A DNA stretch of 64,000 nucleotides from Tomocerus qinae (Eukaryota; Arthropoda; Collembola; Entomobryomorpha; Tomoceridae). Within the stretch, counting starts at the first letter, position 1. Every line of letters begins with the position of its first letter. Below, in pieces: positions 5,840 through 39,199 of the stretch. The stretch covers positions 76,694,001-76,758,000 of the forward strand of contig CM034546.1 in the NCBI GenBank assembly GCA_020055645.1, written 5' to 3'. Both the position numbers and the translations under genes were made by a program. Under the pieces are notes generated by a model that saw only the letters and a program-made list of their open reading frames with translations, had not been told where the DNA came from and did not search any database.

Positions 5840-5877
5840 GGCCCTTTTAAGGGCCACCACATCTTACTGAGAGCAAA
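5840..5877 (+). terminator. Histone 3' stem-loop, H3 copy 1
   Basis: GGCCCTTTTAAGGGCC at 5840-5855, followed by CTTACTGAGAGCAAA. Confidence 0.9.
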
Positions 5878-6965
5878 TTATGACATTTACTCACGTTATT
5901 GCATTACGAATACAAAGCCTGTGACATCCAAAAGAAATGTAACATGTTAAAAACAGACACTTGGATTTCATAATTAGATATTTGGTATTATGGTAAGCTA
6001 GAGATTTATTGTGTCTCAGAGTCTGTATATCATACAAATCTACTACACAAGGCCGCTTTGAGATTATTATCAGAATTAGGTAATTTCTGGACTCATTGAT
6101 TTAATATTTAACGTTTCATTTGTAAAAGAACTAAGATTGCATACATCATATTAACAAAAATTGTACTGATTATGAGACGATAGAACTCAATCATTTGCGT
6201 TAATTTTCTTTCGATATGTGAGTGCCTATTAGTTGCTATTTGCTAAATGAAGAATAATATACCTTCTAATACAATAAAGAGTATTTAATCAATTAGAGTA
6301 TAGTTTAATTAGTGATTCATTTTAAAATAATGTTAACAAATGTTTACTAGCTGTCAACTGTATAGAACTAACATTCATTAATGAATTGATGGTTACATAA
6401 TATTATACTCAAAATAATAAACATAACATTGAACAACAATTATATTATAGTAATTACGATTATTCTCTAATCGAATTGAACAATTTTATTATTCTTACCA
6501 AAATTATTTCATATATTTCCAAAACCAACAAAGGAACTTCCATTAATCGACGTCAGGTAGAATTTCAAAAAATATAATTAGATAAACGCGAATAATAATG
6601 TGCATGCAATTCTGTCGTTCATCAAAATGTGAGAACAGTGAGACTGCATTTGTCCGTATGGTGTGGCAAATGACTAAATAATAGGCTACATATCACCTAC
6701 CAATATTTCAAAATCTTTAGCTGATGCAGCATCACCAAATACTGTTCTACTAAATTATCAACGGTTTGTCTATGTGAATTTCGGCCAAAACACAATCCAT
6801 TGAAATTTACTTACTTCAACATTTTTTAGCACATTATGCAAAGCTAAATCTTCCGTTAGTTAATTATAAGATTAAATAAAATTTTGCTATCCAAAATCAT
6901 GAATATTAAAGAACATTTAAGATTTGAATTTTGCTGCTGTCTTGTTTTGTAACGAAAATATTTTT
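5878..6965. other. H3-H4 spacer, duplicated in unit 2
   Basis: AT-rich noncoding spacer that still aligns by eye with 18140-19200, for example CTACTACACAAGG and AAGAACATTTAAGATTTGAA in both, but with many substitutions and indels. It shows that at least the H3-H4-H1 half of the unit was duplicated as a block. Confidence 0.6.
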
Positions 6966-7000
6966 GCTCTTAGTAAAATGTGGTGGTCCTTAAAAGGACC
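6965..7000 (-). terminator. Histone 3' stem-loop, H4 copy 1
   Basis: On the minus strand GGTCCTTTTAAGGACC (6985-7000), a stem variant with a compensated T-A pair, followed by ACTAAGAGCAAA. Confidence 0.9.
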
Positions 7001-7042
7001 GTTGGGTATAGTGAGTTTAGAAAGTGTCCGTTATAAATAGAA

Positions 7043-7593
<551 letters not shown>

Positions 7594-7712
7594 CTCTCGT
7601 TCCCTTGCAGCCTTATAACGAGAGGGTGAAGGAGACAACCAGTTTACTCACACAGAAACTCTGTCTGTTGATACTCCCAATCTATCTACGCAAACTCATT
7701 TATAAAATCGAA

Positions 7713-8492
7713 ATGGCTGATACTGCTGCCGAGACTCCCGCCGAAGCTCCAGCTGCCCCCGCCGCTGCTGCTACTCCCAAGAAGGGCCGCCCAGCTGCCA
7801 AGGGTCCAAAAACACCCAAGACCCCGAAGGAGAAGAAAGCGCCGAAACCGAAGGGCGAGAAGAAAGTGGCCACTCATCCCTCCGCGGCTGTCATGGTCAT
7901 GGACGCAGTGACCAATCTGAAGGACAAGAAGGGCTCCTCCCTCAAGGCCATCAAGAAATACATCGCCGACCACAACAAGGTCGACGTTGAGAAACAAGCC
8001 TCCTTCATCCGCAAGGCTATCAAGAACGCCGTCACTAAGGGACTCCTTGTCCAAACCAAGGGAACCGGAGCAGCTGGCTCCTTCAAGTTGCCCGTCAAAG
8101 CCAAGCCCGAGAAGAAACCCGCCGGCGAGAAGAAACCAAAGGCCAAGAAGGCTAAAGCCGCCGCTTCTCCAAAAGCCAAGAAGCCCGCAGCAGCCAAGAA
8201 AGCCGCCTCTCCAAAGAAGAAGGCAGCCGCTCCCAAGAAAGCAGCCAGCCCTAAAGCTAAGGCCCCTAAAGCCGCCAAGCCTAAACCAGCTTCTCCTGCC
8301 AAGCCCAAAGCCGCCTCTCCAGCCAAGCCAAAGGCAGCTCCCGCTAAGCCAAAACCAACCTCCCCGAAGAAAGCCGCCGCAAAACCAGCAGCAAAGGCAA
8401 AGACACCTAAAGTCAAGGCCCCCAAACCAAAGGCAGCTCCAAAAGCCACCAAAACTGTGGCTCCCAAAAAGGCGGCCCCTAAGAAGAAATAA
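7713..8492 (+). CDS. H1: Histone H1, copy 1
   Basis: Linker histone of 259 residues. It has an Ala/Pro/Lys-rich N-terminal tail (1-55), a globular winged-helix domain from [20 protein letters not shown] to about residue 135 ([10 protein letters not shown]), and a long C-terminal tail of Lys-Ala-Pro repeats with several SPKK/SPAK motifs typical of Cdk phosphorylation sites. I chose this ATG (MADTAAETP) because the longer frame upstream covers the leader and the other H1 copy begins at the same place. It differs from copy 2 at three tail residues (Pro/Ala, Thr/Ala, Thr/Pro). Confidence 0.95.
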
Positions 8493-11367: not shown

Positions 11368-12426
11368 TCAATTACAATCAATATTCTGATTTTGTTTAAT
11401 CCAAGATGTAAATCTAGTAACATTGGTATAGAACCCTTTTCTCTCTAGATTTGGGTTAGGGTCATCACATTCGGTACCACTTGAAACAATGCCACACAAA
11501 TAATACAAGCCAATCCTCTTATTGAAACATACTAATGGGCCTCCAGAATCTCCTTGGCAAGCGTCAGATACATTCTTGCCTCCTGCACAGATTTTCAGCC
11601 CCATTTTTTCAGGATTAGTTGGTGGACAGGGTTTTAGAGTTATATTGGCCACTTGAAGCTGTTTGGACCATTTGACGATTCAAAGGTGTCTCCCCATCCA
11701 CTAACTTGGGCAGTGCCTTACAATCAAAAAATCATAATACCATGGGGACATTATGAGATTACTGGATAAGTCGTTCAGATTTATAGCTCTAATTGGTATT
11801 GCTTCCAATCTTTTCTCCAGTTTTCTCAGAGGAGTTTTCAATGTAATAAGAGCAATGTCATTATAGCCATCGAATCTATCATAGTCTTCATGAATAATTA
11901 CTCGACAGAATGCAGATTCCTGTTTAGATTCACTGTTTTCATCTAGTGCCTTAATCCCTGCGACTACCTTAGACCATACTGAACTGAAATAGTCATCAAC
12001 ACAGTGTGCTGCAGTTATTATTTTTGTAAATGTATTTGCATTTGGATTGCTTGAATAAATGCTCCCTCCACAAAAATGGCTTCCAAAGACATCTTGAATA
12101 GAAACTTGATATGGAATATAATCACTGTCCATTCCTCCTCCCAGCTTTTCAGCATCTACCAAAACAATCTCCTTTGCAATAATTAAACATTTCATAAATG
12201 AATTTTCTACCAAAAGTCCTAGTCATCTGGCTTTAGTGTGTGTACAATGTTACTTACCTGGTGTTGATTCCTTTGATGTAGGTTCCTGGCATTCACACCT
12301 GTCAAATTCTGTTGTTGAATAATCGCCCTTTTTTCTATCACAATCTTTCTTAAATTGATCAGATTGTGAAAATTTTCAACATTGTATTGCAGAAATTGCA
12401 AATAAAACACTGATTACAAATTTCAT
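11368..12426 (-). pseudogene. Trypsin-like serine protease, disrupted
   Basis: Minus-strand pieces of an S1 serine protease. There is a signal peptide (MKFVISVLFAISAIQC, from 12426), then a cysteine-bearing pro-segment, then a catalytic domain with CGGS, TAAHC (catalytic His), DIALI (catalytic Asp), SGWGD and CQGDSGGP (catalytic Ser). Asp six residues before Ser suggests trypsin-like cleavage after Lys/Arg. Several lesions are visible: an in-frame TGA directly after the signal peptide (12376-12378), a frame change between the DLSSN segment and GTAQVSGWGD (about 11700), and another between SGWGDTFES and VANITLKPC (about 11660). The usual IVGG activation site reads LGGG. Either it is a pseudogene or the assembly has several indels. 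Confidence 0.65.
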
Positions 12427-13419: not shown

Positions 13420-13806
<387 letters not shown>

Positions 13807-13882
13807 TTAGAACTGAGAAGGACTGAAATCTTGAACTGCTATTGAGAGTAGAGTGAATACACTTAGAAATCTGGACGTTGTA

Positions 13883-13926
13883 TTTATACCAAACGGCCGA
13901 GTAAAGTGAGTGGGGTCGTGAGTAAC
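13883..13926 (-). promoter_or_regulatory. H2A copy 3 promoter
   Basis: On the minus strand GTTACTCACGACCCC (GTTACTCAC = 13918-13926) upstream of TATAAA (13883-13888). Confidence 0.75.
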
Positions 13927-14354
13927 GGAACACAACTCCTCACTCTCGGAAAATCCCCGAGGAATTTTAGTTAAGGGGCTACGAACGATTATTTTATGGA
14001 GATTTAATCTTAATCGTTTGGTATTTTAAATGAAATCATATAAAATCATTTATAATGAATTCGACCTGCATAAAATGCTTTATGATTAAATAAATCCTAA
14101 GCATGGAATAAATAAAAGCTTTTAATGCACATCAAAACTGTTTAGTATTGAGTATTGATTGGGTACGTAAATATATAGTTATAAAAATGGCTGTATTTAT
14201 TAATAATTATTTTCTAACGTGAATTAAATGCGCAACAAAATAAAGACATTGATTAATTCATGCCTAAATTTAATTTTTGTTCTAATAAAATAGCATTAAA
14301 ATACTTGCAACCATTCTAAAAAGCGAAAGCAAAAGAAAGCTAATTATTATTAAG

Positions 14355-14518
14355 CCAATGAAATACGTCAAAAATAAAGCTACTCACGGGGAGAGCTTGA
14401 GTAAGGAAATTCCCCTTCCGTGTATTAAGTTTATACATAAGTGCATTGACCCACCCGCTCCCTTTCCCTCTCCCCCTACTCAACCGAAGTTCTCGATACT
14501 CACTCAGTTTAGTATAAA
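14355..14518 (+). promoter_or_regulatory. H2B copy 2 promoter
   Basis: CCAAT at 14355-14359, GATACTCAC at 14495-14503 (one mismatch to the shared GTTACTCAC) and TATAAA at 14513-14518. Confidence 0.72.
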
Positions 14519-14596
14519 TAGGGATTCTCTGTTCCCGTCCTCATCACTTGCAACCGAACTCTCATTTGATAAAGTAAATTCAACTGACTTAGTAAA

Positions 14597-14968
14597 ATGC
14601 CACCAAAGACGAGTGGGAAGGCAGCGAAGAAGGCGGGAAAGGCGCAGAAGAATATCTCAAAGGGGGACAAGAAGAAGAAGCGTAAGAGGAAGGAGTCTTA
14701 CGCAATCTACATCTACAAAGTGTTGAAACAAGTTCACCCGGACACCGGAGTCTCCTCCAAGGCCATGTCCATCATGAACTCCTTCGTGAACGACATCTTC
14801 GAGAGAATCGCCGCCGAGTCCTCCCGCCTCGCCCACTACAACAAGAGAACCACCATCACCTCCCGGGAGATCCAAACCGCCGTCCGTCTCCTCCTCCCCG
14901 GAGAATTGGCCAAACACGCCGTCTCTGAAGGAACCAAGGCCGTTACCAAATACACTTCCTCCAAATAA
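14597..14968 (+). CDS. H2B: Histone H2B, copy 2
   Basis: 123-residue H2B, identical in protein to copy 1. Two silent changes near the 3' end distinguish it (GCCGTTACC). It starts at the ATG after TTAGTAAA. Its partner H2A copy 3 is head-to-head on the other strand with 799 bp between starts, longer than the 618 bp in unit 1. Confidence 0.97.
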
Positions 14969-14996
14969 ACATCTCATACAGCACTTCTGACCCAAC

Positions 14997-15031
14997 GGCC
15001 CTTTTAAGGGCCAACACATTTTACTGAGAGC
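14997..15031 (+). terminator. Histone 3' stem-loop, H2B copy 2
   Basis: GGCCCTTTTAAGGGCC at 14997-15012, then TTTACTGAGAGCAAA. Confidence 0.9.
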
Positions 15032-15800
15032 AAATACGACAAACTATTTTACTGCATAGTCGTTTTAGTGTTACATTTTAAAAACCTAAATAACACTATA
15101 GGGATGTCAAAATAATAATAAGTTTTAAAACCGGAAATTGTTCTTGCATCGAACCGAAGTTGAGAAATTCTTTGATGGCTTGTCAAGTTAACAAAATTGG
15201 CTTCAAAGGTTTATGATACATCAAATATCTTGCATTAGGTTAGGTCATTGTTAAAAATTGAAATTTTATTTAGAAATCTGGGCGTTGGTTTGGTAGTGCA
15301 GAGCTGAATATCGTTATCACTCTTATCTTTTATTCCTTTATTTCTTGTATTTTCTTTTGTCATTTAATTTGTTGTTTAAATTATAACTACAACCACTTTA
15401 ATTTAATGTAATCGCTCCACTTTTTGATAATTCGGCAATATTAGTTCCCTATTGGTATTTAACTATTAATCTTATTTTTTCATTAAAAAAATCATAATCA
15501 CTTGGCAATGATTTAATGAGTCACTGATGCGTATGTAATTAAAGACTCATGAGTCATTACTGTTGCACCAAAGGATTTTCATTTCAGGATTTTTCACATT
15601 TATTTTCTTGCAATTCTGAAATGCTGTAAGATTATAGAAATAAGGGTTAAATTCGAATTTGAAAATAAAATATTTAATGTGGATTAATTATTAATTTTAC
15701 AAAAAAAATTGTAATGTATTTATTTCGGAAGAATTTCTGCATGGTAGAATAGTAAAAATAAATAAATACTGTTTTGTAATCCACAATCAAAATCCTATCG
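15032..15800. other. H2B-H2A spacer, no gene seen
   Basis: AT-rich, with no visible relation to the equivalent spacer in unit 1. Confidence 0.45.
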
Positions 15801-15827
15801 GGGGTGTTCCGTGAGGAGTTGTGTTCC

Positions 15828-15871
15828 GTTACTCACGACCCCACTCACTTTACTCAGCCATTTCGTATAAA
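15828..15871 (+). promoter_or_regulatory. H2A copy 4 promoter
   Basis: GTTACTCAC (15828-15836) and TATAAA (15866-15871), 29 nt apart as at the other H2A genes. Confidence 0.78.
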
Positions 15872-15960
15872 TACGAGGTCTAAATCTCTATGTGTATTCA
15901 TTCCACTCTCACTAAAAGTTCAATTTTTCAGTCCTCGTTTTAAACTCACATTAATCGATA

Positions 15961-16338
15961 ATGTCAGGTCGTGGTAAGGGCGGTAAGGTGAAGGGGAAGG
16001 CCAAGTCGCGTTCGAGCCGGGCGGGACTCCAGTTCCCCGTCGGTCGTATCCATCGTCTTTTGAGGAAGGGGAATTATGCGGAGCGAGTTGGTGCTGGAGC
16101 TCCCGTCTACTTGGCCGCCGTCATGGAATATTTGGCAGCTGAAGTTTTGGAGTTGGCGGGTAACGCTGCCCGTGACAACAAGAAGACCCGTATCATCCCT
16201 CGTCACTTGCAATTGGCCATCCGCAACGACGAAGAGTTGAACAAATTGCTCTCCGGAGTCACCATCGCCCAAGGAGGAGTTCTCCCCAACATCCAAGCTG
16301 TACTCCTACCCAAGAAAACCGAAAAGAAAGCCGCTTAA
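15961..16338 (+). CDS. H2A: Histone H2A, copy 4
   Basis: Second H2A of unit 2, 125 residues, with protein and visible coding DNA the same as the other copies. It starts at the ATG after TCGATA. The promoter block GAGGAGTTGTGTTCCGTTACTC is shared with copy 2, but the leader carries point differences. Confidence 0.97.
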
Positions 16339-16378
16339 ATAAATGCCCTCTCTTCTCATGCCTCTGAATACATCCAAC

Positions 16379-16415
16379 GGCCCTTTTAAGGGCCACCACA
16401 TTTTACTGAGAGCAA
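16379..16415 (+). terminator. Histone 3' stem-loop, H2A copy 4
   Basis: GGCCCTTTTAAGGGCC at 16379-16394, then TTTACTGAGAGCAAA. Confidence 0.9.
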
Positions 16416-17510
16416 ACTGAAAAATAGATTATCTTTATATACATTAGCTACATATTATAACTGACAAGCAAACGATTTTTAAACAACGTTCTAGAATTCG
16501 TAAATAATTAACATTGTAAAATCATTGAGTTGGTTGGTATATGATATCCAGTAATTATTGAAATTTTTTCTGAAGTGAATATATTGGTATTGTTATAATA
16601 CTATGAACGCTTACCTTTTTCAAACTTGAGGTTTTGAATAAAATAATAAACTTTATAGTCCAAGCAATCATATCGTGCGTGAGATTTATTTATAAATTTG
16701 GTGCAGATCCAATCTCCAAATATTGATGTACTTTTTGTTTAAGTTTTCTAGAACTATTTAAATGGTGATTATTAATTAATGTGTCGTCATTTTGAGAGGT
16801 GTTTGCAACCACTTTACTTGAGAGGTAAATCGGTTGGTTAATATCAAATAGTGATTATCTTTAACATTAGATTTTAACCCTTACTTACAGTAGTACAGAC
16901 AATAAAAAAATTCAAAATCTAAGTTTTATATGTAATTCATAAAAATCCAATATTTTTAATATTTTCCGAAAAGTTTGCAATTTTACTAGAACGTCAATAT
17001 TTATTTAATTTTTAGTTAAACAATCAACACTATAAAAAATAGTAAATTACTGATAAATACAAATACTTGTTTATTTATTTGAGTGTTTATACAAATGTCC
17101 AGGCTATTATTTATCAGGGCCAGTAAGTACAACATATATTTAAGATTTACGTCTTAGTCCCCCAACGTAATGGTATATATTCATGTAATCCCCATTCAGC
17201 ATATTTAGCCTAAGTATTAGCAATTACGGGTATAATAATATTTATGTAAGGTTGTGGTGTTTATAATATTTAATTCTGTAAATAGAGTTCATTTTAATTT
17301 CCAAGAATAATGAGACACCTGCAAATATGCATTTAGCATCAATAATAGCCAATCAGAAACTTGATAAATATATTTGAAAAATAGATAAGACCAACGCCAA
17401 CGGCTTACTTGCTCATGGCAAACGGATTATTTTTATCTATGCAGTTACAATGAGAAGGATGGAGGGAAGAATCCCCTTCCCTCGCGTTGAGTCTAACAAA
17501 CTGGCATTTG
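16416..17510. other. H2A-H3 spacer, no gene seen
   Basis: AT-rich noncoding spacer with several A/T runs. No supported feature. Confidence 0.45.
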
Positions 17511-17517
17511 CCATACA

Positions 17518-17577
17518 CCAATGAGAAGTGTGAGTTTTGTTTCTCGTTACTCACCACCCTCTCCTCTTGGGTATAAA
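17518..17577 (+). promoter_or_regulatory. H3 copy 2 promoter
   Basis: CCAAT (17518-17522) in ACCAATGAGAAG, GTTACTCAC (17546-17554) and TATAAA (17572-17577). Confidence 0.78.
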
Positions 17578-17660
17578 TACGACTCAGTTTCTTCTACACT
17601 TCATCACTTCATTTTCAACTTTGCTCGAGATATAACCTCACCTCAACTCATCAGCTCTAA

Positions 17661-18080
<420 letters not shown>

Positions 18081-18117
18081 ACATATCTATCTACATTATC
18101 TAAGCATCTCAACCAAC

Positions 18118-18155
18118 GGCCCTTTTAAGGGCCACCAAATTCTACTAAGAGCAAA
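18118..18155 (+). terminator. Histone 3' stem-loop, H3 copy 2
   Basis: GGCCCTTTTAAGGGCC at 18118-18133, then TCTACTAAGAGCAAA. Confidence 0.9.
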
Positions 18156-19199
18156 TTATGACAATACTTAATATCGCATTACGAAACCTGTAGCATCAAA
18201 TGTAATGTAACAAGCTAAAAACAGACACTGGAAATTACCATGCATTTCATAATAGATATTGGTTGTTATGATAAACTAGACAGATTTATTGTGTCTGTAT
18301 ATTATTCAAATCTACTACACAAGGCAGCTCTGAGATTATTATTAGAATTAGGTAATTTCTGGGCACATTTATTTAATATTTAACGTTCCATTTGTAGAAG
18401 AAGGAAGGTTACATACACCATTTTAACAAAAATTGTACTGATTATGGGATGATGGAACTCAATCTTTTACTTTAATTTTCTTTTTAGGGTTTATGAGTAT
18501 TTACTAATTGCCATTTGCTAAAATAAAGAATATTATAATAATCTTCTAATACAATAGAGTATTTAATCAATAAAGTGTAGTTTAATTAGTGCTTCATTTG
18601 AAAATAATGTTAACAAAAGTTTACTATTAGAGGATTAACATCCAAGAATGGATTGATAGTTAAATAGTTATATAATAATATTATACTCATATAATAATAA
18701 TAAACAACAATGAATGGTAATAAGTAAATAACGTCTATTCACTAAACGAATTGAACAATTTTATTAATTTTACCAAAATTATTTTATATAGTTTTCCACA
18801 TCATCATAGAAACTTCCATTAATCGAAACCCGGCATTATTTCAAAAAATATATTTTAAGATGACGGAATTATGTCGGTATCTGAAATGTATGTTTGTCCG
18901 TATGGTTTTTGCAAATAAATAATAGGCTATATTGTACCACCTACCAATATTTCAAAAAGCTTTTTTGCATCAACAGTTATTGGTCTACTAAATTATCAAC
19001 GATCTATCGATTTGAATTTCGGCCACAAAACAGTCCATAGAAATTTACTTACTTCAAAATTTTCTAGGATAATAGGCTAGATCTGCCGCTAGTTAACTAT
19101 AAGATTATAATAATATTTTGCTATCCAAAATCATGAATATTAAAGAACATTTAAGATTTGAATTTTGCTGCTGTCTTGTTTTGTAACGAAAATATTTTT
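18156..19199. other. H3-H4 spacer, diverged duplicate of 5878-6965
   Basis: Noncoding and alignable with the unit 1 spacer through many small blocks. The last 60 bp before the H4 terminator are almost unchanged. Confidence 0.6.
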
Positions 19200-19234
19200 G
19201 CTCTTAGTAAAATGTGGTGGTCCTTAAAAGGACC
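19199..19234 (-). terminator. Histone 3' stem-loop, H4 copy 2
   Basis: On the minus strand GGTCCTTTTAAGGACC (19219-19234), then ACTAAGAGCAAA. Confidence 0.9.
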
Positions 19235-19278
19235 GTTGGTTATCAAATGAGATGTGAAAGTGTCCGTTATAAATGGAA

Positions 19279-19608
<330 letters not shown>

Positions 19609-19691
19609 TTACTTTGAGAAGTTTAAAGTAAGAATTGGATTCCGTAAGTGAATGAGTTCTTCTGGGAAGAGCTCGCTTTTAAGTTGGTGTT

Positions 19692-19814
19692 CGGACGTTG
19701 AGGCATATTTAAGCTTTTCTTTGACTATTTCATATTTTTCTATATTGCCGTTTCAAGGACAACACTTAGTAAAGGAGGGAATTGAGTAGATATTTTCAAT
19801 CTCCTCAACGTCCG
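19692..19814. promoter_or_regulatory. H4-H1 divergent promoter, unit 2
   Basis: CAACGTCCG facing H4 (complement of 19692-19700) and facing H1 (19806-19814), as in unit 1. The middle of the region is shorter by about 16 bp than in unit 1. Confidence 0.65.
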
Positions 19815-19932
19815 CTCTCGTTCCCTGGCAGCCTTATAACGAGAGGGTGAAGGAGACAACCAGTTTACTTATACAGAAACTCTGTCTGTTGAAACTCCAA
19901 TCTATCTACGCAAACTCATTTTAAAATTCGAA

Positions 19933-20712
19933 ATGGCTGATACTGCTGCCGAGACTCCCGCCGAAGCTCCAGCTGCCCCCGCCGCTGCTGCTACTCCGAA
20001 GAAGGGCCGCCCAGCTGCCAAGGGTCCAAAAACACCCAAGACCCCGAAGGAGAAGAAAGCGCCGAAACCGAAGGGCGAGAAGAAAGTGGCCACTCATCCC
20101 TCCGCGGCTGTCATGGTCATGGACGCAGTGACCAATCTGAAGGACAAGAAGGGCTCCTCCCTCAAGGCCATCAAGAAATACATCGCCGACCACAACAAGG
20201 TCGACGTTGAGAAACAAGCCTCCTTCATCCGCAAGGCTATCAAGAACGCCGTCACTAAGGGACTCCTTGTCCAAACCAAGGGAACCGGAGCAGCTGGCTC
20301 CTTCAAGTTGCCCGTCAAAGCCAAGCCCGAGAAGAAACCCGCCGGCGAGAAGAAACCAAAGGCCAAGAAGGCTAAAGCCGCCGCTTCTCCAAAAGCCAAG
20401 AAGCCCGCAGCAGCCAAGAAAGCCGCCTCCCCAAAGAAGAAGGCAGCCGCCCCCAAGAAAGCAGCCAGTCCCAAGGCTAAGGCCCCTAAAGCCGCCAAGC
20501 CAAAACCAGCCTCTCCTGCCAAGCCCAAAGCCGCCTCTCCAGCCAAGCCAAAGGCAGCTGCAGCTAAGCCAAAACCAGCCTCCCCGAAGAAAGCCGCCGC
20601 AAAACCAGCAGCAAAGGCAAAGACACCTAAAGTCAAGGCCCCCAAACCAAAGGCAGCTCCAAAAGCCACCAAACCTGTGGCTCCCAAAAAGGCGGCCCCT
20701 AAGAAGAAATAA
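19933..20712 (+). CDS. H1: Histone H1, copy 2
   Basis: 259-residue linker histone. The winged-helix globular domain is identical to copy 1; the Lys/Ala/Pro tail differs at three positions. It starts at MADTAAETP, preceded by a leader almost identical to copy 1. The tail is the only place where proteins of the two units differ, consistent with weaker constraint on tail sequence. Confidence 0.95.
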
Positions 20713-21557: not shown

Positions 21558-21887
<330 letters not shown>

Positions 21888-21968
21888 TTACTTTGAAGTA
21901 TAAAGTAAGAATTGGTATTTGAGAGTGAATGAGTTCTTCTGAGCAGAGATCGCTTTTAAGTTGGTGTG

Positions 21969-21977
21969 CGGACGTTG
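21969..21977 (-). promoter_or_regulatory. CAACGTCCG element of H4 copy 3
   Basis: The 9-mer found in both H4-H1 promoters is present once here, about 100 nt upstream of the ATG. Confidence 0.6.
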
Positions 21978-22360
21978 AAGCATCTACGTTTCTTTAACAG
22001 ATTCTACAATGTCTTTTCCATTTCCCCTATTACTAAATACCATAGAAGTCTACATACATATTGTGGGTTTTCCTCAGATGGCCAGGGCACTGCTCTGGTA
22101 TGCTATGTTAAGTTGTATTTACGGTTACAATTTTTAATGTAATAGTTTTATAGTTAATTGGACATTTGGCTGGTAATCGATTGTGGTGTTAGTATCTGGA
22201 TCATGAGACTGAGAAAATGTTCGTCATAAAATTTATGAAATCTTTACTTAAAAATTACAAGCAAGCAGTTTGTAAGCGATTTTCGAAAATGGATGAAATG
22301 AAACTGTATTCAGGTAAACTAAGGAGAAAATTTGACGAATAAGAGCAACTTTTATTATAG

Positions 22361-22545
22361 CCAATGGAAAGTGGTTTTATTATACCCAATGACGATTGCC
22401 AAAAATATATTTACTCAAGGGGGGAGCGTGAGTAAGGAATTTCCCCGTCCGTGCATTGCATGCACGGTCAAAACTTGGCCACCCGTTCTATTCTGCCTCC
22501 CCTTACTCAATTCAAGTTCTCGTTACTCACTCAGTTTAGTATAAA
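22361..22545 (+). promoter_or_regulatory. H2B copy 3 promoter
   Basis: CCAAT (22361-22365) in TATAGCCAATGG, GTTACTCAC (22522-22530) and TATAAA (22540-22545). Confidence 0.78.
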
Positions 22546-22623
22546 TAGGGATTCTCTGTTCCCGTCCTCATCACTTGCAACTGAACTCTCTTTTGATAAA
22601 GTTTACTAAACAGATTGTGTAAA

Positions 22624-22995
22624 ATGCCACCAAAGACGAGTGGGAAGGCAGCGAAGAAGGCGGGAAAGGCGCAGAAGAATATCTCAAAGGGGGACAAGAA
22701 GAAGAAGCGTAAGAGGAAGGAGTCTTACGCAATCTACATCTACAAAGTGTTGAAACAAGTTCACCCGGACACCGGAGTCTCCTCCAAGGCCATGTCCATC
22801 ATGAACTCCTTCGTGAACGACATCTTCGAGAGAATCGCCGCCGAGTCCTCCCGCCTCGCCCACTACAACAAGAGAACCACCATCACCTCCCGGGAGATCC
22901 AAACCGCCGTCCGTCTCCTCCTCCCCGGAGAATTGGCCAAACACGCCGTCTCTGAAGGAACCAAGGCTGTCACCAAATACACTTCCTCCAAATAA
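22624..22995 (+). CDS. H2B: Histone H2B, copy 3
   Basis: 123-residue H2B identical in protein to copies 1 and 2 (silent sites match copy 1). The ATG at 22624 is chosen because MPPKTSGK is the start in the other copies. The in-frame ATG nine bases earlier is in the leader. It is the last histone gene of the window and has no H2A partner in view. Confidence 0.97.
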
Positions 22996-23788: not shown

Positions 23789-26700
23789 TCATTTATCAGC
23801 CCACCATAACTTGTTTATTTCGGCAAGTACTGACTCGGCGGAGAAGCGTGACTTCTGGTCGGCCATCATAGCCATTATAATTCGTTTCTGTAAATAATTT
23901 ACATTTTACAAATATTTTAGTATTTTCCATGAAATAAATGGATCATGAAGAATTTTACCTCCTCGGGGTAAACATCTAATTCACGTGGAAAAGAATAGTC
24001 CCTGTAAAATTGCAGCTGCTTATCGAAATATTCGTTGTTGTCCCTGTTTCGGTTCATGTTATAAAATAGTATTTCAAAAAGAACCATTCCAGCAGACCAT
24101 ACATCAGTAAGATTTCCATAGTTGAGATAGTCTCGCTAAAAAGTAAAAACAACTGACTCTAATACTTACAGTTCGTAATAACTATGGATAAATAGTAAAC
24201 GATTTTAGCATGATATTATCATATTATTCTTTAACGACTATTTGTAATTGATGCAACTAATAATTGACTTGTTTATGGATTATAATATTTGAATGCTGTA
24301 AAATCTTATACCATTTCTGGACTCGCATAAACATAAGTTCCTGATTGATTTGACAAAGGTTTTCTTGCATCTAGTTTACGCATCAATCCAAAGTCTCCAA
24401 TCTTTGCAATAATTTTTCCACCTTTTGTGTTTACGAGCAGAATATTATCGGGTTTAATGTCCCGATGAATAAGACCTCTTTCATGGATATGTTTCAGCCC
24501 TTCCATAATGCCTTGAAAAAAATATTTTCCATCCTTTAAATTTTGAGCGTTTCCAGTATTTGTTTGGTTTAGCCAGCGGCAAAGGTCTTTCAGGGGGCAC
24601 CATTCCATTCGAATGATCATTTTGTCCACCTCTTCATTGTACTCGTCATGTATGAATTTCAATATGTTTTTGTGAGAAAGGTTGCGCCAAAGTATAACTT
24701 CATTTTGTGCTTTACTTATCTCAGTTTTACTCATTCTACAATAATAAAAATAATTAAATTAAAGTTTATATTTTATCCCTTGACAGCTTGCTAATAATTA
24801 GCTAAAAACTTAAACTACAATAAAGTAGTTTAACGTTAATAGTCAATTGTTATTAATAATTCGATAATAAAAACATTACTTCTTTAAATCTGCACCAAAA
24901 CTACAAAATGTTATTGGTTTACCCTTTAAAATCAATCTCTTTTTCTGCAACAGTAATGGTTGTCATGAATTGCCTTTTATACACTTTTCCAAATGCACCG
25001 AAACCTGTAAAAATTAATCTGATTTAAACTTTGCAATATATTCACTTGCGTTTTTAATCTGTGACATAAGTCTCAAAAATGGTTTTATGTTTAGGTATGT
25101 TGTTATGACAAAAAAAATGTCTAACACCTTTTGCGATATCAAGTACCCCAAATAGTATAGAGCTATACAGGTGAAATCAACCTTAACATCTATGAGTGGG
25201 GTTTTCCATAAGGAATTGCAAAGAATAGAAGTATTAATCTATGTTCTCCAATGATCGAGAACCAGCTTTTTATACTGCAAGTAGATGTCGTGATTCTTAG
25301 TATTTTTTAATAAAAATAATTTTGACCGAATGTTATCTCTAGCTTAGTTTCGTGAGCTTAAATGTTTTTCCGAAAGACAATTTTGGGAAAAATTTATGTA
25401 TTGAAAAAATTCTTAAGGCAAACTGCCACAAGAAATTGAAATATTGTTTGTTGGCATCAGGCTAACATGTTTAAAAAAATAGTGCCTTTTTTAACATAAA
25501 AGTTCATTTAGTCTCATTGTCCTTTTGTCGCAACTTGAACAAAAAAGTGGAAAGTGTGCTTTCTGGTGACTGGTAATTAATATCTTAGGGATTTTTCATT
25601 GAAGAGAACACCCAGTTTATTAATTCTGTAGTGTAGCAAAAAAAGTTGGAAGCATCACCAATTTCTGCAAAATTTAGTTTTTTATGAACACAGGAAGGAA
25701 TGCGGTATTCCCTCTTTGTACTAAAATAGTTTAAAAATAAATAGTTTAAAAAATGTAGAATTTAAAGCCAACTGAAACAAATTTCAACAGATTAATAATT
25801 TTAAACAAAATCTGAAGAAGCGTGATCAAAAAATGTCAACCAAATTCATTGAATGTTCTTTTCCACAAATGATAATTTATTTAAAGTATCTAACCGTAAT
25901 CTTGAAAAATGAAAGTTGATAATTTGATTAAGCACTTACCAGCTTCCACGGAATTCCGCTGTACATCAACAACACCGTCGACATTTTCATGCTCATCAGT
26001 ACTATCATTTTTGTTTTTTGCCTGAAATTTAGTTTTGCATACTTCTAAAGCTTGCAGTTTTGTAACACCGTCGGTGTTGTGTATTACTGAATTAAAAAGA
26101 GCAATGACTTTTTTTAATATGCCTGGATTATGATCTACTAGCTCAGAAATTTCTTCTGCTTTCCTTTCCTCTTTTCTATTTGTAAGCTGTAGAACTATGC
26201 GCAAAAATGATGCAGAGTCCCTTGAATCAAATTCAGTTACTGGTATGTGAGTGCATATTTCAAATCTGAGCTTTACCCTATTATCCAAAGTTGTAAGAAC
26301 AATTAATACATTGTCCTGGATGTCTGTCAAGCTTTTAAGACTTTCTAATACGCTGTTGGTGGACGATATATCATCAAACACAATTAACTTTGGTTTCCTT
26401 TTGGAACGAAGTTTTGCAAAAATGGTTCGTAATATTAAATTAAAATTAACGTCTTCTACTTTAAAATCCAACCAATTTGGTTGCCCTAGTTCAAGAAGAA
26501 ATGTCAAGGTATCTGATTCAGTGTTACTGTCAATCCAAATACAATGCCCTTTCTCTTTGCGTACAATCTCTTCAGTAAAATAGCGGACAAGCTCACTCTT
26601 TCCAACACCCCGACTACCTTCGATTATTATTATTTCCGGATTACAAGACTTTCTTAAATTGCATTGATGATACCTTTCTTTTAGTATCTCATAATTATTT

Positions 26701-27299
26701 TCAAAGTTTTCGTGAGTAGAGGGATCAAAATTTTCTATTTTAGAGCCGACTCGAAACCAAATGCAACGAAGGTAGCTGTTATCCGAATTCGGTGTTAGTT
26801 TATCAAGCATCAATGGATCTTTAAAGTTTGCTGTTGCTGCTGGAGCCAATGATGTCAAATCTTTTGATATTAGATTAGAACTGTCATTCCCTTCCACCGG
26901 TTTTTCTTCATCTTGTATTTTAACCGGATTTTCAAAAATATTCCTTGTCAATACCTCAGCTAAGTGGGCATTCCCAGTATCTCTAAGTATCGAGACAAGT
27001 TTTTCCAATGTTACATCCTTTTTGCTGATTAGAAGAAAGAAATCAGTGCTTTTTTCGTAAGAAGTTGGTTTGCTTTTCTGCAGATAGTACAGATTTTTTT
27101 GTTTTAGAATGCATTTTCTATGAAATTTTTAGCGGTTTAAAATCTATATAACATGATGGAATAAACTCACAATATATTCCACGTCGTAGAGTGTTAAAAT
27201 TTGTTCCTGAATTGTGAAGTTGTACAAAACTGACAAATTTGTTGTATTTTCCGCCAAAAAAGGTAAATTGGCACGTATAATTTCTGTAAGTGAACTCAT
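23789..27299 (-). CDS. CARD-like domain / STAND ATPase / protein kinase, 682 aa
   Basis: Six minus-strand exons (27171-27299, 25940-27077, 24923-25004, 24312-24735, 23959-24135, 23789-23887) join with GT-AG borders and matching phases into 683 codons. Residues 1-90 form a six-helix CARD-like domain that spans exons 1-2. About 130-400 is a P-loop NTPase: Walker A GSRGVGKS (197-204), Walker B LIVFDDI (about 274-280), then a winged-helix-like part, resembling NB-ARC/STAND. From 421 a kinase follows: glycine loop GFGAFGKVY, Lys in VAEKEID, Glu in the C helix, HRDIKPDN (540-547), DFG (564-566), SPEM, DVWSAGMVLFEIL and a C-lobe ending near the TGA. Catalytic residues look intact, so an active kinase is likely. 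CARD plus STAND is the layout of death-fold sensors such as Apaf-1; a kinase in place of the C-terminal sensor repeats is unusual. No transmembrane segment. The function (stress or immune signalling) is inferred. Confidence 0.82.
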
Positions 27300-29730: not shown

Positions 29731-32700
29731 ATGGAAAATTCGAAAGAACACTTTAGCCGAATTCTGTTTTATACAGAATTATCCTTAGCGGTAGAAGAAA
29801 AATTTAAAAATTCTGCAAGCGGCTCGCCGGAGTGGGAGCTGCTACAATTTGTCAAAAAAGCCAATGTAAGGATTACGTGATATTTATTTATTTTACAAAT
29901 ATGACAATTTGATAATAATATTTTTTATACCAAACACTTCTTATTGAAACAACATAATAATATGTTAACATAATAACAAATGAAACAATAATGAATTCTA
30001 ATATATTTGTAGTGTAGAAACTTACGAAATGTAACAGCATGTGAAGTGATAAACACTAACAGTGTGTTTGATAATATTTGCACATCCATCTCAGAGACTT
30101 TTAGGCCATTATATAGATGCATTTTTGTCAAAAAATGTCGATGCGAGGTGTCATTCTGAAGCTATATAAATATGGGGAAAAGGTCAATAATTACCTATTT
30201 TTGCAGCCGAGGACCTTATAAGGAGGTCAATGGTCATGTTTGCAAAAATTAGATTGTTTGATGTACATCTATGTAGGTATATTAAGTAGTGCTATTAAGT
30301 AGTACATCGGGTGTTTGAGTACTTACTAGCCAAAACCCTTTTATAACATAGACTTTAACCTTCTCCAGTGCTTACATATAACACTGTAAAATGTCCTAAG
30401 CTTTCTTGCCAATTAAAACTCATGTCTATGGCTGTTTATGTACTATCGCTTTAATAGGTAGGTACATTAATCTAAAGCATCGTAATGATAGGTGTACTGA
30501 AATACAAGAGTTTTAACTTGCTTGAGAGCAAGGAACATCTTTCGTCGTGTTAAATAAGCACTGGAGAAGGATTAAGTTTTATGTTATAAAAGGGTTTTAG
30601 TTGTAAGCACTCAAACATCCGATGTACTACTTAATAGCACAACTTAATACCTAGCTAGATCTACATCAAACATCCTAATTTTTGCAAACATGACCTTTGA
30701 CCTATTTATAGGGTCCTCGGCTGCAAAACTTGGTAATTATTTGGCCTTTATCCCATCTTTAGTTTCAGAATGACACCTCACATCGACATCTTTCGACAAA
30801 AGATAAAATTTGACCTCTGACATCTCATAGAGGTCAACAATTTTTTGACCTTGAGTTTTGAAATACTGAAAATGATTTTTTTGACCAAATAAGTCAGTTA
30901 ACAATATTAAAGTACACAGAAAAACAGAACTAAAAATGTCAACTGAAGATCTAATTTTCCTATTTTAAATAATTTCTTGGATATTTAAAAATTTATTTTG
31001 TTTAAAATTGCTTTTCTTTTTAATTTGGAAATAAGATGATAGAGGGGGTAAAGTTACATAAATATTAATGTAAATCTAAATGTAACTTTTTCCTCCTCTA
31101 TGTACACATATCATCTCCTATTCCTAACGCAATATCCATCCATTAATTTCTGTGTTATGTTATTACAGGAAGATGATGGTGCTTCTTATCAGAAATCCCA
31201 AAGGATACTTAATCTGCTGCTTTCTGAGAACATCAAATCCAAAATATTTAAAGAAAAAGGCAACGTACAAAAAGAACAGTTGAGAGAATGTTTTGAAAAT
31301 CACCAAAATGCACCAGCATGGCAATATTTAATGAAAATGGTCGAAGTTAAATCCGGTTAGCAGTTATATAATTCCTAATTATTCAGAGATTTATCTTTTC
31401 TGTTATTGAATACTATTTTCGTTTGCTCGTCAATTAGAAAATACCTGTGCACCAGGCACGTATCCAGAAATTTGGTCAAGGAGGGCGCAACCAAAAATAC
31501 TGTAAAAAATAAGACATATTCGCGCGAAGCGAATTTTTTGAATTTTTTTGGAAAAAATCCTCTCTTTTTCTCAGATTTAGGGGGAGCGCCCCTACTGAAT
31601 ACGTGCTTGCTGTGCACGATAGTTTTTAAATGGTTTGAAAGAGCTCAAATTTTACAAGTTTAAATTTTAAAGAAAGTTCAAATCTGCAAATGGGCAGAAT
31701 CGGCCACACCCCTTCATTTTGGTTCTATTCATAGTACAAAAGTATAAATATTTCGACAGCCAACATGTTTTGTGACACTACTAATATAGGTTCAACCGTT
31801 TCCTGACAGGGAAAGAGGGTGAAAAGCTAAACATCAATCGGTGTTACTACAATTAGTCATAAAAGTCTTATAATAGCTCTTTCGTAGGATAACTAGTTAT
31901 GGGGCATTGCTAAGTTGGTCAATGTTTGTAAGATGTCAAAAGTCAAGTGATTTAAGTTAAAACTTTCTCTGTGCCTGAAATTTTAAATAATAATAATATG
32001 TCTTATGATAACAGATTCTGAAGATTCAACAGATTCCAATCAAAATGTCGAAGAATTATTTTATCTGGCGTTATTCGCTGTTCGGGAAGGTGATATACCT
32101 AAACTAACAGACTACATTAACAAAATTTTGATATCTGGAGAAATGGACTCATTGGCAAACGTTATTGCTGAAGGAACTTCTTCTACTAGAAAGACGATAC
32201 TTCATCTTGCTGTCTTCAAGGGTATTTTAAGCGATACAGCACAATGCGATACACTTTTTCCTACGAGTTCGAGCATTAACCGTTATAATTAGCTGTTACA
32301 TTTATCCAAGGACTTTATCTTTTAGGTTCAGGTTTCGATATTAATCCAAAAAAGGTATTTCTTACTCGAGTAATTATCCTTTTAAGCGACAAAGAAACCT
32401 AAAACTTCAGAGTTTAAAATGTTATTATGGCATTTCACTATCTCCGAGTGATTCAATAACAATTTGTGAAATTAACCTTGAAAGGCTTTTGTGGGGAGAT
32501 TTGAATTTACATTTGTGTAAGACTCTAGCAAATTGATTCAGATTTCAAAATGACAAAATTTGAGTTTTACTGTCTATTAAAAGAAGCATTTTTCAATCTA
32601 CAAAATAGCGGTGACCTGGCATTTTTTAAAAATTCCTACAATTTTTGGCAACAATTTAAATCTTTTTTGTTCCTTATACCATATTAATTCCAAGAGCAAA

Positions 32701-35700
32701 GAGCTGAAATCAATCCTTAAGGCTGGCGTATTTAATTACACTTTAGATTTGATGGAATTTTTTTAATTCTAAGGTTTTATGTTTGCTGATATGGTGCTAT
32801 ATCATGTGGGGTCAAAATGGCTATACCGCCTCAATATTTGAATTCGGTGCATTTAATTGTTCTTTAGGGTTGTGGAAATTAATTTAATTGTAAAGTTTTA
32901 GATTTGGCGTACCCTTTATATAATTTAGGGTCAATTTGATATCTAAACCCCATTAATATTTGAGTTCGGCGTAATTAATTACCCTTTAGGGTTGATGGAA
33001 TTACATTAATTCCAAGATTTTATATTTACCAATATGGGGGCGAACCCTCTATATCGTGCGGGGTCAATGTGATGGCTAAACCGCCTCAATATTTGAATTC
33101 GGCTTATTTAATTACCCTCTAGGGTTGATGGAATTAATTTAATACTATGGTTTTATGTTTATCAATATGGGGGCGAACCCCTATGTCGTGTGGGGTCAGT
33201 AGTGTGGTGACATAGTGGTTTAGAATTGATGTCTGTAATTGGTGAATAAGGCTCAGTTAGTTTATTGTAATTTTTAATTTTGAAACCGGCAAACATTTGC
33301 TGTCTAATGGCTGACCAACGGGTTTTTGTGTATGTATTTCGTTATCGTCATACTAAGAGGTTAAATTGTAGAGAATGGCTTTACAGCCTTTTATCTCGCT
33401 TACTAGATCTAGCTCAACTGAATTAATTTGCTAGCGTCTTACACATTTGGTAACCACAATTTGGGAACCCAGTTTTTATAGAAGCAGAAAATATGATCCT
33501 AAATAAATTTTATATGAATAATATTCCCCGAAATTGATCGGCAGCTGTTTTCTGACTTTAGCTGTTGGGTATTTTTCGGGGTTTTAATCCGCAAGCGAAA
33601 AAAAATTTGGGCGCCCAAAAAATATGACGATTTTTGCGAATCTAATACAATTATTGACGTCTTATTTTGGGCGCCGCGGGCGCCCAAAAATTTCCCTGCC
33701 GGCGACCAGGGCACCTTGCGGCGCCCAAAGCGGAGGGCCTCCGCGAAGAAATTGCAGGCCTGTAAAACTTTGAATGATCTTCCAGGTATTCATTATAGGG
33801 AACATCTGGATTGTATTCGTCAGCTTTGTAATTTTGCTTCAAAACTAAACAAAAAGAACGAATTGTTAGACGCAAAAGATGGAAATGGGAATACTGCGTT
33901 GCACTTAGCGATAAAAATGAAGTTGTCTCAAGTGTGTCGTGAATTAATACAACAGGGAGCTAATTTACGTATTGCGTAAGTATTGTTATTTTAATATTAA
34001 AACTAAACATCAATTTCCAGGCCTACAGCTGCCCGACCCTCCAAACCTAACCTAATTTATCATAATCTAACCTATAATCTAAGGATGAATCCGGTGGGGC
34101 ACCCCACCCTAACATGCCTGTGTGCGTATATTGTATGTATTTAAATAGCATTTTTGTACAGGAACATGAAAGGCAAAACATCACTTGAAATGATTTACCG
34201 AACCTTTCCTTCAGTAGTTACTTTTATACTGAATCAAGACATTTCTTCAACGGACGACATAACAAGTGATTCGTTTAAAGTAGCTGTGGACTATAAGTAA
34301 AACATTTTCTTTGAATTACATTAGTAATTTCATTTTATTAGTATGGCAATTTATTACAACATTTACTCTGTTCGGTTTAGAAACGTCATTACAGGATATC
34401 CTTCTAATAAAGAGTTCAAACTCAGAAGATATATTAGAAATTGGTGCAGAAATGTTGGAAGATGGTGGGAAACTGGAGGAAGAGAATGGGAAAGTATACC
34501 ACTACAAAATCTGCAAAGCTATGAGAACAACCGAATACGGCGTGATGATTTCAGTGAAATTGAAAATCTTGCAAGAATAATAAATTCCGATAAAACGATT
34601 TACAAACCAGTGTTATGTCATCCTATTGTGAAACTGTTCCTGGAAATGAAAAAGGAGGAAATGTACTGCAGTTTTATTTGGTACTCATTGTTTCAGGTGT
34701 GCGAATATTAAATTTGGTATTATTTAAACAGGATTTAATTTTAATAGTATTAAATGGTCATTTTTATCAATGCAGATAGTATTTTATATCATTTATATCT
34801 TGGTCATCTATGACATTTGTTATGTAAAATGTCCCCACCCAGTCTTTATGGATGAACGGCAAGATTATAACAGGACTGATAACTTGTGCGAGCAGTTAAT
34901 TCTAAATCAAGATCGTCATGCGGCTGAAATATTTTGCAAACGTTTACTTCATGAAGAGAATATTGCACCGCTATCAAATTCATTTCAAAGGCTATGGTAC
35001 CATAAACTGCTACTCTGGGTAATTGTTGTACTAACTACCTTGTCTCTTGGCAAAGAATATATTGAATTTCAAAAAACCCAGAAAGTGGCACAGTTTTACA
35101 ATTATTTTATTGATACGGAGAACATTATTCAACTCCTATTCTTCTCCTTTGTGTTTGCATTGATTATTCCACTATGCTTTTGGGAAGAAATTCAAGAATG
35201 GCAGTATTGGTTAGCCTCAGTAAGTTTTCGATTATAATAAAACATATATTATTTGAAGCCAGCATCAGAGCCGGCCCTAGCTTTTGCAGGGCCATAGCAA
35301 AATGACTACACAGTGCCCGATTAAGTTTTATCACTATAGATAAAATTAATTTCACAAGTATTAATAAATGATTCTATAATTTTATAACCATGGTGTTTAG
35401 CCAAAAATTATAAGCTTACATTTTAGTAGCCCAATAAAAACACAATTCAAACATTAGGACCTTTTAAGCACGGGGCCCTAGCACCCTAGACTTTGCCTAG
35501 GTTGCTTATGTGGTAGGGTCGGCTCTGGTCAGCAATTATAAGTCTCTACTAACTGGTGCCATAATATTTCATACTGATTTCATGCCCAGAAACCGAATAT
35601 TATTGTCTTATGGTAAATATTGTTCTCTATATTTGTAGATCAGCATTTTACTTGCCGGAATATTGCTTCTATTAGCTATTGGAAACACTAAGAGCACGAA

Positions 35701-37575: not shown

Positions 37576-39199
37576 ATGTCTGAATTGTACTTATTGCCAC
37601 TGCTTGAGGAAGTTGAAGACGACGATCTTTTAGCTATATTTAAGGATGAGGCAAACATTTCTGGAAAAGAATGCAATTTATTTCCATTTAATACATTCAG
37701 TGACGAATATTGCCGCAAACACTTTAGATTTTTTAAGAACGATATTTTTAAGCTCAAAAAAGCTTCAAAAATTCCACATTCATTTTCCCTGGAAAATAAA
37801 CTCAAAGTCGAAGGTCTGGAAGCGTTATGCGTCTTATTACGTCGACTTACTTATCCTAACAGGTAAATGGAATCAGCTAAACTATTTAGACCTGTTTAAA
37901 AAAATGACATCAATGAATCATATATGAAGCATGTGAAATGAAAAATGTAATTTTTATATTGGTGGACCTCAAGAAGATTTTTCCAAGAACTGAGTGTGAA
38001 CTCTCGAGAATTTTCAATGCAGTTGTTGAATTTGTCGTTCAAAACCACAGCCACCTTTTGAAAACTTTATAGCAACCCTACATAACTATTCCAAAAGTCG
38101 AAGAATTTGCAAACGCCATTCATGAAAAGGGTTCGCCATTCAAAATGTGCTTTGGATTTATTGATGGAACGGTACGACCCTTATGCCGACCTAATCGGCT
38201 TCAAAAAGAGGTAATCCTATAAAACCTACAACTGTGGCTCTGAGGTTAAATGCACTGCCTCTTAGCCTATCGGACCTAGTTCGATTCCCGGTTGGAGCTT
38301 GTTTCTTTCTGGGGGGTTGTAGGTTTAAGGGTGTTCCTGGCTCGGTGTTTAAGTACGGAGAATATCCTTGAGGGAAATGGTGGTACTGGAGCTCGTCCCT
38401 CTGGTACCCGGGATTATAATAGGGCTACGTCGCGTATTCTAGTACTGCCAAATCCTCAAAAAAATCTACCATAGGTGCATTCTATGGTTGAATAGTGTCA
38501 AAAAAGTGTATAAAAGTGTCTAGTGGGCCCAGAATTTACGAGTTGAAAGCTCAAATTGACTTCGGTTGATTCCGCACATGTAATGAACTATACTATACTA
38601 TACTATAATTCTAGCATAAGCATTGAATTTATTTAGTTATTGGAAATAGTATAAAAATTGTTTATAAAAGTAACAACCTCTTATACATTTTTCAGTATTA
38701 CAATGGGCACAAACGGACGCATGCATTAAAATTCCAGTCAGTGATGCTACCCAATGGAATAATTGGAGCTCTAAGTGGTCCTGTGATTGGGCGACGTCAT
38801 GATGCCTACATTTTGGCAGAAAGTGGAATTATTGAAGAGCTGGAAGCTGAATTCAATAACGAAGAAGGAAATCCTTTCTACCTGTATGGAGACCCAGCAT
38901 ACCCACTTCGTAAACATTTGATGGTGCCTTTTAAAGGCCACAATTTGTCTCATGCCAAGCGAATGTGCAATAAAAGAATGAGTAGGGTTCGTCAATCGGT
39001 GGAATGGGGATTTGGAAAAATAATTCAAAATTTTGCTTTTTTAGACTATAAAAAGAATTTGAGGCTTGGATTACAACCTGTAGCTAAATATTATATTACA
39101 GCTGCTTTATTAACTAACTGCCACACATGTCTTTACGGATCTCAGACATCTGACTACTTTGGCTTAGAACCCCCAGATTTATTTGTTTATATGCAATAA
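37576..39199 (+). pseudogene. Harbinger transposase, broken
   Basis: Exon 1 (37576-37863) gives the N-terminal helices ending LRRLTYPNR. A middle exon (about 37960-38213) gives ECELSRIFNAVVEFVVQ and CFGFIDGTVRPLCRP, with the first catalytic Asp. Exon 3 (38695-39199) gives YYNGHKRTHALKFQ, RHDAYILAES, YGDPAYPLR (second Asp) and VRQSVEWGFG (catalytic Glu). All three DDE residues are kept. The middle exon has an in-frame TAG (38070-38072) and a frame change at a T-run near 37978, so no intact enzyme is predicted. It belongs to the DDE_Tnp_4 superfamily. A SINE sits in the second intron. Confidence 0.85.
38232..38610 (+). mobile_element. tRNA-derived SINE-like insertion
   Basis: The head resembles a tRNA: TGGCTCTGAGGTTAAATG (A-box-like) and AGTTCGATTCC (B-box, 38279-38289). 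A body of about 300 bp without an ORF follows, with a tail of repeated CTATA units (ACTATACTATACTATACTATA near 38588). It is inserted in the transposase intron, so it is younger than the Harbinger element. Ends are approximate and no target duplication was identified. Confidence 0.55.

Follow-up and report, generated by a model that had tools for sequence, protein, structure and literature searches.

Does a single animal gene encode a CARD, a STAND-type ATPase and a protein kinase, in that order, in one chain? The question is raised by a locus of the collembolan Tomocerus qinae, which lies at positions 27299-23789 on the minus strand of a 64,000-nucleotide stretch (the window; positions 76,694,001 to 76,758,000 of contig CM034546.1 in GenBank assembly GCA_020055645.1). 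The answer that we favour, and to which we give about as much credence as doubt, is that the gene encodes a 682-residue signalling kinase consisting of a CARD, a linker, a reduced NB-ARC-type module and a C-terminal RD kinase, working as a CARD-recruited, nucleotide-assisted clustering kinase. The modules are known and their arrangement is unusual; this is a new order of known modules and not a new kind of system.

Gene structure and the ATPase-kinase junction

The gene is read from an ATG at 27299 (context ACAAACAATGAG) to a TGA at 23791-23789. Its six exons (27299-27171, 27077-25940, 25004-24923, 24735-24312, 24135-23959 and 23887-23789, all on the minus strand) are separated by introns that each have a GT donor and an AG acceptor, and they join in phases 0, 1, 2, 0 and 0 into 682 codons with no internal stop, in agreement with the first-pass annotation of this DNA, which had joined six exons without phase conflict. 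Exon 1 supplies residues 1-43, the first half of the CARD. Exon 2 runs from residue 44 to the split codon 423 and holds the second half of the CARD (to about residue 95), a linker, the NB-ARC-type P-loop ATPase (about 183-371), a further linker and the first kinase strand. After intron 2 (25939-25005, 935 bases, donor GTAAGT, acceptor TTTTTACAG), exon 3 carries the kinase glycine loop GFGAFG and the β3 lysine (K444, in VAEK), exon 4 the part from αC (E462) to the activation segment (HRD 540-542, DFG 564-566 and SPE to 590), exon 5 the C-lobe with the αF aspartate D602, and exon 6 the end of the kinase (R664) and the stop codon.

Given a stop frequency of 0.072 in the local non-coding DNA, a run as long as the 379 open codons of exon 2 has a probability of about 6e-13, so its open frame is not a product of chance. 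A codon score was trained on four other reading frames of the window and compared with equal-length stretches assumed to be non-coding; the score of exon 2 was reached by none of 1076 such stretches, and the fractions of controls reaching the scores of the other exons were 0.0009 (exon 4), 0.019 (exon 5), 0.042 (exon 3) and 0.043 (exon 6). Exon 1 is not set apart from the control stretches by its codon score alone (fraction 0.11). The open spliced frame is thus seen in the sequence itself.

The junction of exons 2 and 3, where the ATPase meets the kinase, is supported and not proven. Read on into intron 2, the frame of exon 2 meets a stop after 47 bases; read upstream, the frame of exon 3 meets one six codons back, with no ATG between. 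The donor (CTG/GTAAGT) leaves a split codon that, joined to exon 3, yields the first glycine of GFGAFG, and among the 16 GT sites near the end of exon 2 it is the only one that reads GTAAGT, with a phase that suits exon 3. A scripted search of intron 2 for coding first exons that could be joined in frame to exon 3 gave five. None of the five has a GTRAGT donor or supplies the first loop glycine, one would leave an intron of 41 bases, and all were judged weak as candidates for an internal kinase start. A small extra exon in intron 2 (open frame, 20-300 bases, one of four strong donor hexamers) was also sought, and none was found. As the exon 3 frame is stopped upstream without an ATG and the alternative first exons lack the glycine, an independent start of a complete kinase is improbable. 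The likely outcome is one spliced product, judged from a search for coding first exons within intron 2.

It is unlikely, in our estimate, that the locus instead makes two products, namely a CARD-ATPase protein ending 47 bases into intron 2 (if the intron is retained or poly-A is added early) and a kinase whose transcription starts at a promoter inside the 935-base intron. The other four introns are far shorter, at 71-187 bases. On the minus strand, intron 2 contains one TATA-like site (25274) and two AATAAA sites, the first directly after the retained stop (25881) and the second at 25621; with these sites a shorter CARD-ATPase product may be made. Mis-joined gene models are reported as a source of false new domain architectures in animals (PMC3927609), a caution that applies to this gene. 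What speaks against two products is the upstream stop of the exon 3 frame, the poor quality of the five first exons, the single GTAAGT donor in the phase of exon 3 and the loss of the glycine loop that a start at an ATG within exon 3 would bring, and no TCAKTY initiator-like motif follows the TATA-like site within intron 2.

The kinase, the ATPase and the probable CARD

The C-terminal kinase domain is unambiguous (Pfam Pkinase, residues 422-672, E = 1.8e-43). All 16 positions that were checked against a PKA sequence are kept (G423, G425, G428, K444, E462, R541, D542, K544, N547, D564, F565, G566, T583, E590, D602 and R664), with T583 aligning with PKA T201. With R541 before D542 the kinase is of RD type, and with its active site intact it is predicted to be active; RD kinases are usually activated by phosphorylation of the activation segment. 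The last 20 residues of the protein begin with SRFSA, so neither an RNase domain nor a repeat domain follows the kinase. A relationship to IRE1 or RNase L was rejected, as the protein ends with the kinase and has no KEN RNase domain, and the score was low.

In the protein database, 1327 of 3619 candidates matched the kinase at E = 1e-5 or better, the top match with 29% identity. There is no arthropod name among the 120 matches listed, most of which are nameless entries, so that this counts for little as a negative. The kinase domain is the only part of the protein with a visible relative within the window, in a second kinase gene on the plus strand.

To place the kinase, it was compared with 18 other kinase domains. 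The highest scores went to ULK1, ASK1, the second window kinase and CaMKII, and RIPK2, the sole RIP-family member compared, was the lowest of the 18 (15.1 bits, phmmer), on which the kinase was rejected as a RIPK2 relative. The best PDB matches to this kinase alone are DCLK1, NEK1, MYLK4, CaMKII, ULK and ASK1 chains. No eIF2α kinase is among the best 60 of 2708 PDB matches and ULK1, ASK1 and CaMKII score better, and an assignment as a clear eIF2α kinase was therefore not upheld. A joint profile of both window kinases against the PDB gave GCN2 first (141.2 bits), with calcium-dependent kinases next (133.7 bits). In a FastTree tree of 19 domains the two window kinases pair (support 0.849), and the pair stands beside WEE1 and PKR, PERK, HRI and GCN2 (0.919), not inside the four. 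A position near the eIF2α kinases and WEE1 is a lead only, as it depends on the references used and on long branches.

Ahead of the kinase there is a P-loop domain, which is likewise seen in the sequence. The NB-ARC profile matches residues 183-409 above its curated cut-off (E = 1.8e-7; 31.2 bits against 23.5), and both Walker A (GSRGVGKSE, 197-205) and Walker B (KLIVFDD, 273-279) are present. Further motifs are VLIVLTTLDNRV at 300-311 and HNPGILKKVIALF at 359-371, and we take the order of motifs over 197-371 to be that of the NB-ARC landmarks. The best NCBIfam match to exon 2 is a bacterial STAND-TPR protein (exon residues 143-337, 2.9e-7), which at 29.4 bits is far under the cut-off of 300 for that model and is in line with a STAND-type core.

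From the last NB-ARC-type motif to the first glycine of the kinase loop there are 51 residues, which are partly polar and the last of which belong to the kinase; part of this stretch is probably unstructured. A winged helix, the element that locks Apaf-1-type switches, has about 75-90 residues and thus does not fit here, and no winged-helix family was above its Pfam cut-off when the whole protein and a piece of it were scanned. No family of sensor repeats (WD40, LRR or TPR) is among the 19 Pfam families listed. The best explanation of the ATPase is thus a reduced NB-ARC-type module, with the nucleotide-binding domain and the first helical domain suggested by the motifs, and without a winged helix or sensor repeats. 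By these features the protein is not an Apaf-1- or NLR-type receptor. Its sensing input must therefore come from a partner, most simply via the CARD.

The N-terminal death-fold domain is likely a CARD, an assignment that is supported and not proven. The Pfam CARD family matches the whole protein with E = 0.0025 and the first 110 residues alone with E = 2.5e-4 (21.4 bits), residues 30-88 covering profile positions 26-84 of 85, and none of nine shuffles of these 110 residues gave a CARD match. The only other family found for the N-terminus is CARD_2 (residues 7-88, E = 0.15). By eye, and set against the CARD consensus, YEKSTDFFLLISKKDVTLEKLVSILRDTGNAHLAEVL resembles the second half of a CARD. 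Searches of the PDB with phmmer gave a single, insignificant match for residues 1-95 (E = 0.26) and nothing significant for the ATPase (best E = 0.17), so both domains are to be seen, at the level of sequence, as remote members of their families. The order of CARD, STAND-type ATPase and kinase with an intact active site, as read in the first-pass annotation, is thus supported, with the CARD formally below its cut-off.

A proposed clustering kinase and its alternatives

In the mechanism that we favour, a CARD-bearing partner (an Apaf-1- or NLR-like sensor) would recruit the protein by CARD-CARD contact, the ATP-loaded NB-ARC module would help to pack neighbouring chains together, and the kinases, thus brought close, would phosphorylate each other's activation segment (serines and threonines around 577-583) and so become active. 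Only the parts list is seen directly; the clustering is what we infer from it. This mode would be like the recruitment of RIPK2 by NOD1/2, except that the kinase would carry its own packing module of the Apaf-1 type. NOD-type receptors are described as exposing CARDs that recruit the CARD kinase RIPK2 (PMC6321704, PMC11747288). Given the CARD, the protein most likely acts in immune or death signalling. The earlier proposal that sensing-driven oligomerisation activates the kinase survives in part: the order of the modules is supported by sequence, but a winged helix does not fit and no sensor repeat was matched.

Several points weigh against the clustering kinase. The CARD score of 21.4 bits is below the curated Pfam cut-off of 23.9, and the death fold is read from the sequence profile, the sole structure model, made from exon 2 alone and without an alignment, having been uninformative (mean predicted local distance difference test score of 40). 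On the P-loop, AAA_14 (residues 190-305, E = 9.1e-9, 35.8 bits against a cut-off of 27) outscores NB-ARC, so the exact family of the ATPase is not beyond doubt. The sensor-1-like motif reads TTLDNRV; we take the corresponding Apaf-1 motif to be TTRD, in which case the sensor-1 arginine is gone, and the module may sense nucleotide less well or no longer at all. There is a weak match of HrcA_DNA-bdg, a winged-helix-turn-helix family, to residues 340-372 (below the cut-off, with E = 0.15 for the whole protein and E = 0.056 for the piece), starting before the last ATPase motif and overlapping it rather than following it. The first kinase β-strand, QRNSVEAG, is poor in hydrophobic residues compared with YNILGHIG in the second window kinase, and the exact junction could therefore differ. 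No relative was found in the protein database for residues 1-420 (0 of 7245 candidates) or for exon 2 alone (0 of 3623); viral contigs searched with exon 2 gave nine stretches that fit a pattern, none of them a relative. Finally, Apaf-1 is reported to recruit RIP2 by a contact of WD40 with the kinase domain and not by CARD-CARD contact, and kinase-dead RIP2 to have signalled as well as the wild type (PMC11747288), so that neither CARD recruitment nor catalysis can be assumed.

The protein shares features with several known systems. Like RIPK2 it has a kinase and a likely CARD in one chain, and CARD-driven clustering probably activates it; the domain order is reversed, however, an ATPase lies between, and the kinase is not RIP-like. 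The comparison with RIPK2 made in the first-pass annotation thus stands for the parts list and fails for the kinship of the kinase. AP-ATPases of the Apaf-1 and CED-4 type begin with a CARD, as this protein probably does, and share with it an NB-ARC-type core in which Walker A and Walker B precede a helix motif with a P; this protein differs in having too little space for a winged helix, no WD40 repeats and a kinase directly next. Among lancelet RIPK2 homologues, the LRR-TIR-kinase and LRR-death-kinase combinations are fusions of death-fold domains and kinases in animals, but the description drawn on mentions no NB-ARC module and calls the kinases RIPK2 homologues (PMC11747288). Among the papers listed by full-text searches, most of them represented by the title and the opening of the abstract, we recognised none on a CARD, NB-ARC and kinase in one animal protein. 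The earlier statement that no common animal family has this order can be kept in that form, with the qualification that in DAPK1, an animal protein of the Roco family, a kinase, a P-loop switch and a death-fold domain are already combined, although the order and the class of NTPase differ (PMC6337361).

Fusions of a STAND ATPase with an intact kinase, sometimes C-terminal, are known from plants and fungi (PMC4759884, PMC12258605), and they suggest another reading, namely that the kinase is an integrated bait, a fused copy that pathogen molecules bind or modify while the CARD-ATPase part signals. Protein kinases are given as the commonest class of plant NLR fusion, with 161 NLR proteins from 19 species carrying them N- or C-terminally with the active-site residues kept (PMC4759884), and in Sordariales NLRs with a kinase domain it is C-terminal in nine of 12 and viewed as a candidate decoy (PMC12258605). 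The kept catalytic residues of the present kinase are compatible with a bait. In the nine fungal proteins with a C-terminal kinase, however, the tripartite NLR is complete, no CARD is mentioned in these descriptions and the organisms belong to other kingdoms; the present protein is not a full NLR, having no room for a winged helix and no matched repeats, and so the logic of an autoinhibited receptor is absent. A search of the window for kinases gave one further locus, with 27-31% identity, and within that scope there is thus no obvious guarded original. We consider a bait quite improbable.

We would put at the same low level a reading on the pattern of DAPK1 and LRRK, in which the P-loop module would be an intramolecular nucleotide switch and a dimer interface for the kinase, and the CARD a dock for downstream partners and not an input. 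DAPK1 is described as holding a kinase, Roc-COR and a death domain in one chain, dimerising via its Roc and kinase domains and having a kinase that responds to GTP, and LRRK-type proteins have the P-loop ahead of the kinase, the same order as in this gene (PMC6337361). In DAPK1 itself, however, the kinase comes before Roc-COR and is CaM-dependent, the death domain is C-terminal and the NTPase is a GTPase rather than NB-ARC. The P-loop domain here matches AAA_14 and NB-ARC, while Roc reaches only E = 0.17 (12.6 bits against a cut-off of 27) and no COR family is listed by Pfam, and the kinase is apart from DAPK1, the Roco kinase compared, in the tree.

A bolder proposal, of which we are if anything a shade more doubtful, is that PKR-like stress kinases arose separately in an arthropod lineage, where a relative of the eIF2α kinases was shuffled onto immune switch modules, so that the CARD and NB-ARC core would cluster a translation-arresting kinase and the second gene would sense by its LRR-like region. 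If this were true, a CARD-STAND assembly would stop protein synthesis without caspases or NF-kappaB. The joint placement of both window kinases beside PKR, PERK, GCN2, HRI and WEE1 is the point of likeness, whereas the kinase of this gene, taken alone, matches ULK1, ASK1 and CaMKII better. Least probable of all is a young and possibly decaying lineage-specific chimera, a plain CARD kinase with a dead ATPase as relict spacer, which would fit the missing relatives of the CARD-ATPase part, a TTLDNRV motif without the sensor-1 arginine, the lack of space for a winged helix and a window that also carries repeated histone genes and a transposase fragment, but not the intact Walker A and Walker B, the frame open over 682 codons or the coding-like codon use of exon 2.

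If the transcript is real, the clustering kinase would have a death-fold adaptor, a STAND-type packing module and an effector kinase in one animal protein, and the two-protein step of NOD-RIPK2 signalling would be partly hard-wired. With it one could ask in a simple setting to what extent an NB-ARC core that lacks both winged helix and sensor can drive the activation of a kinase, and it would put an animal case beside the plant and fungal NLR-kinase fusions.

The second kinase gene and other features of the window

The second kinase gene (42899-44500, plus strand; exons by eye at 42899-43077, 43161-43614, 43802-43990 and from 44423) was found by tblastn with the kinase of the first gene (E = 2.7e-16), and its longest piece matches Pkinase with E = 2.1e-24. 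The best PDB match of this kinase is PKR (100.7 bits), with a calcium-dependent kinase at 99.5 bits. Of the kinase relatives whose genomic surroundings were looked at, this is the nearest. The kinase comes first and is followed by an LRR-like region to about 47010, in which LRR_At5g56370 matches at 0.0065 and 0.0016, below the cut-off. A lineage-specific sensor-kinase family is possible.

Two intronless frames lie further to the right on the plus strand. The one at 49385-54430 has about 1681 residues; it contains a NACHT domain (4.1e-12) and, behind this, a long stretch that appears helical by eye; the one at 57489-58916 has 475 residues and a weak TPR match (0.001, below the cut-off). One scan of bacterial and archaeal genome contigs gave no relative of the NACHT frame, and one scan of genome contigs gave none of the TPR frame. 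By eye, a near-identical stretch of about 80 residues is shared by 55997-56332 (minus) and 57051-57377 (plus) and, being on opposite strands, thus forms an inverted repeat just before the TPR frame.

Between the two kinase genes, frames at 31052-35237 (plus) resemble by eye an ankyrin-repeat protein with membrane segments behind the repeats, perhaps a channel of TRP type; the sole piece scanned, 34728-35237, has no Pfam match. A DDE_Tnp_4 transposase fragment, which we take to be Harbinger-like, is found at 38627-39199 (plus; 8.5e-24).

To the left of the CARD-ATPase-kinase gene there are histone genes, named by eye. A block of H2A(-), H2B(+), H2A(+), H3(+), H4(-) and H1(+) occurs twice, at 1392-8492 and 13420-20712, with near-identical proteins, and an additional H4 and H2B lie at 21558-22995. 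The H2B protein matches chains of 6pwe and 2pyo (122-123 residues) with 238-241 bits, compared with about 190-200 bits for human- or Xenopus-type chains; 2pyo is a Drosophila nucleosome. The top PDB match of H2B is a chain with two H2B copies. Between the two histone blocks there is a trypsin-like protease gene at 11368-12222 on the minus strand (6.5e-15 for 11701-12222).

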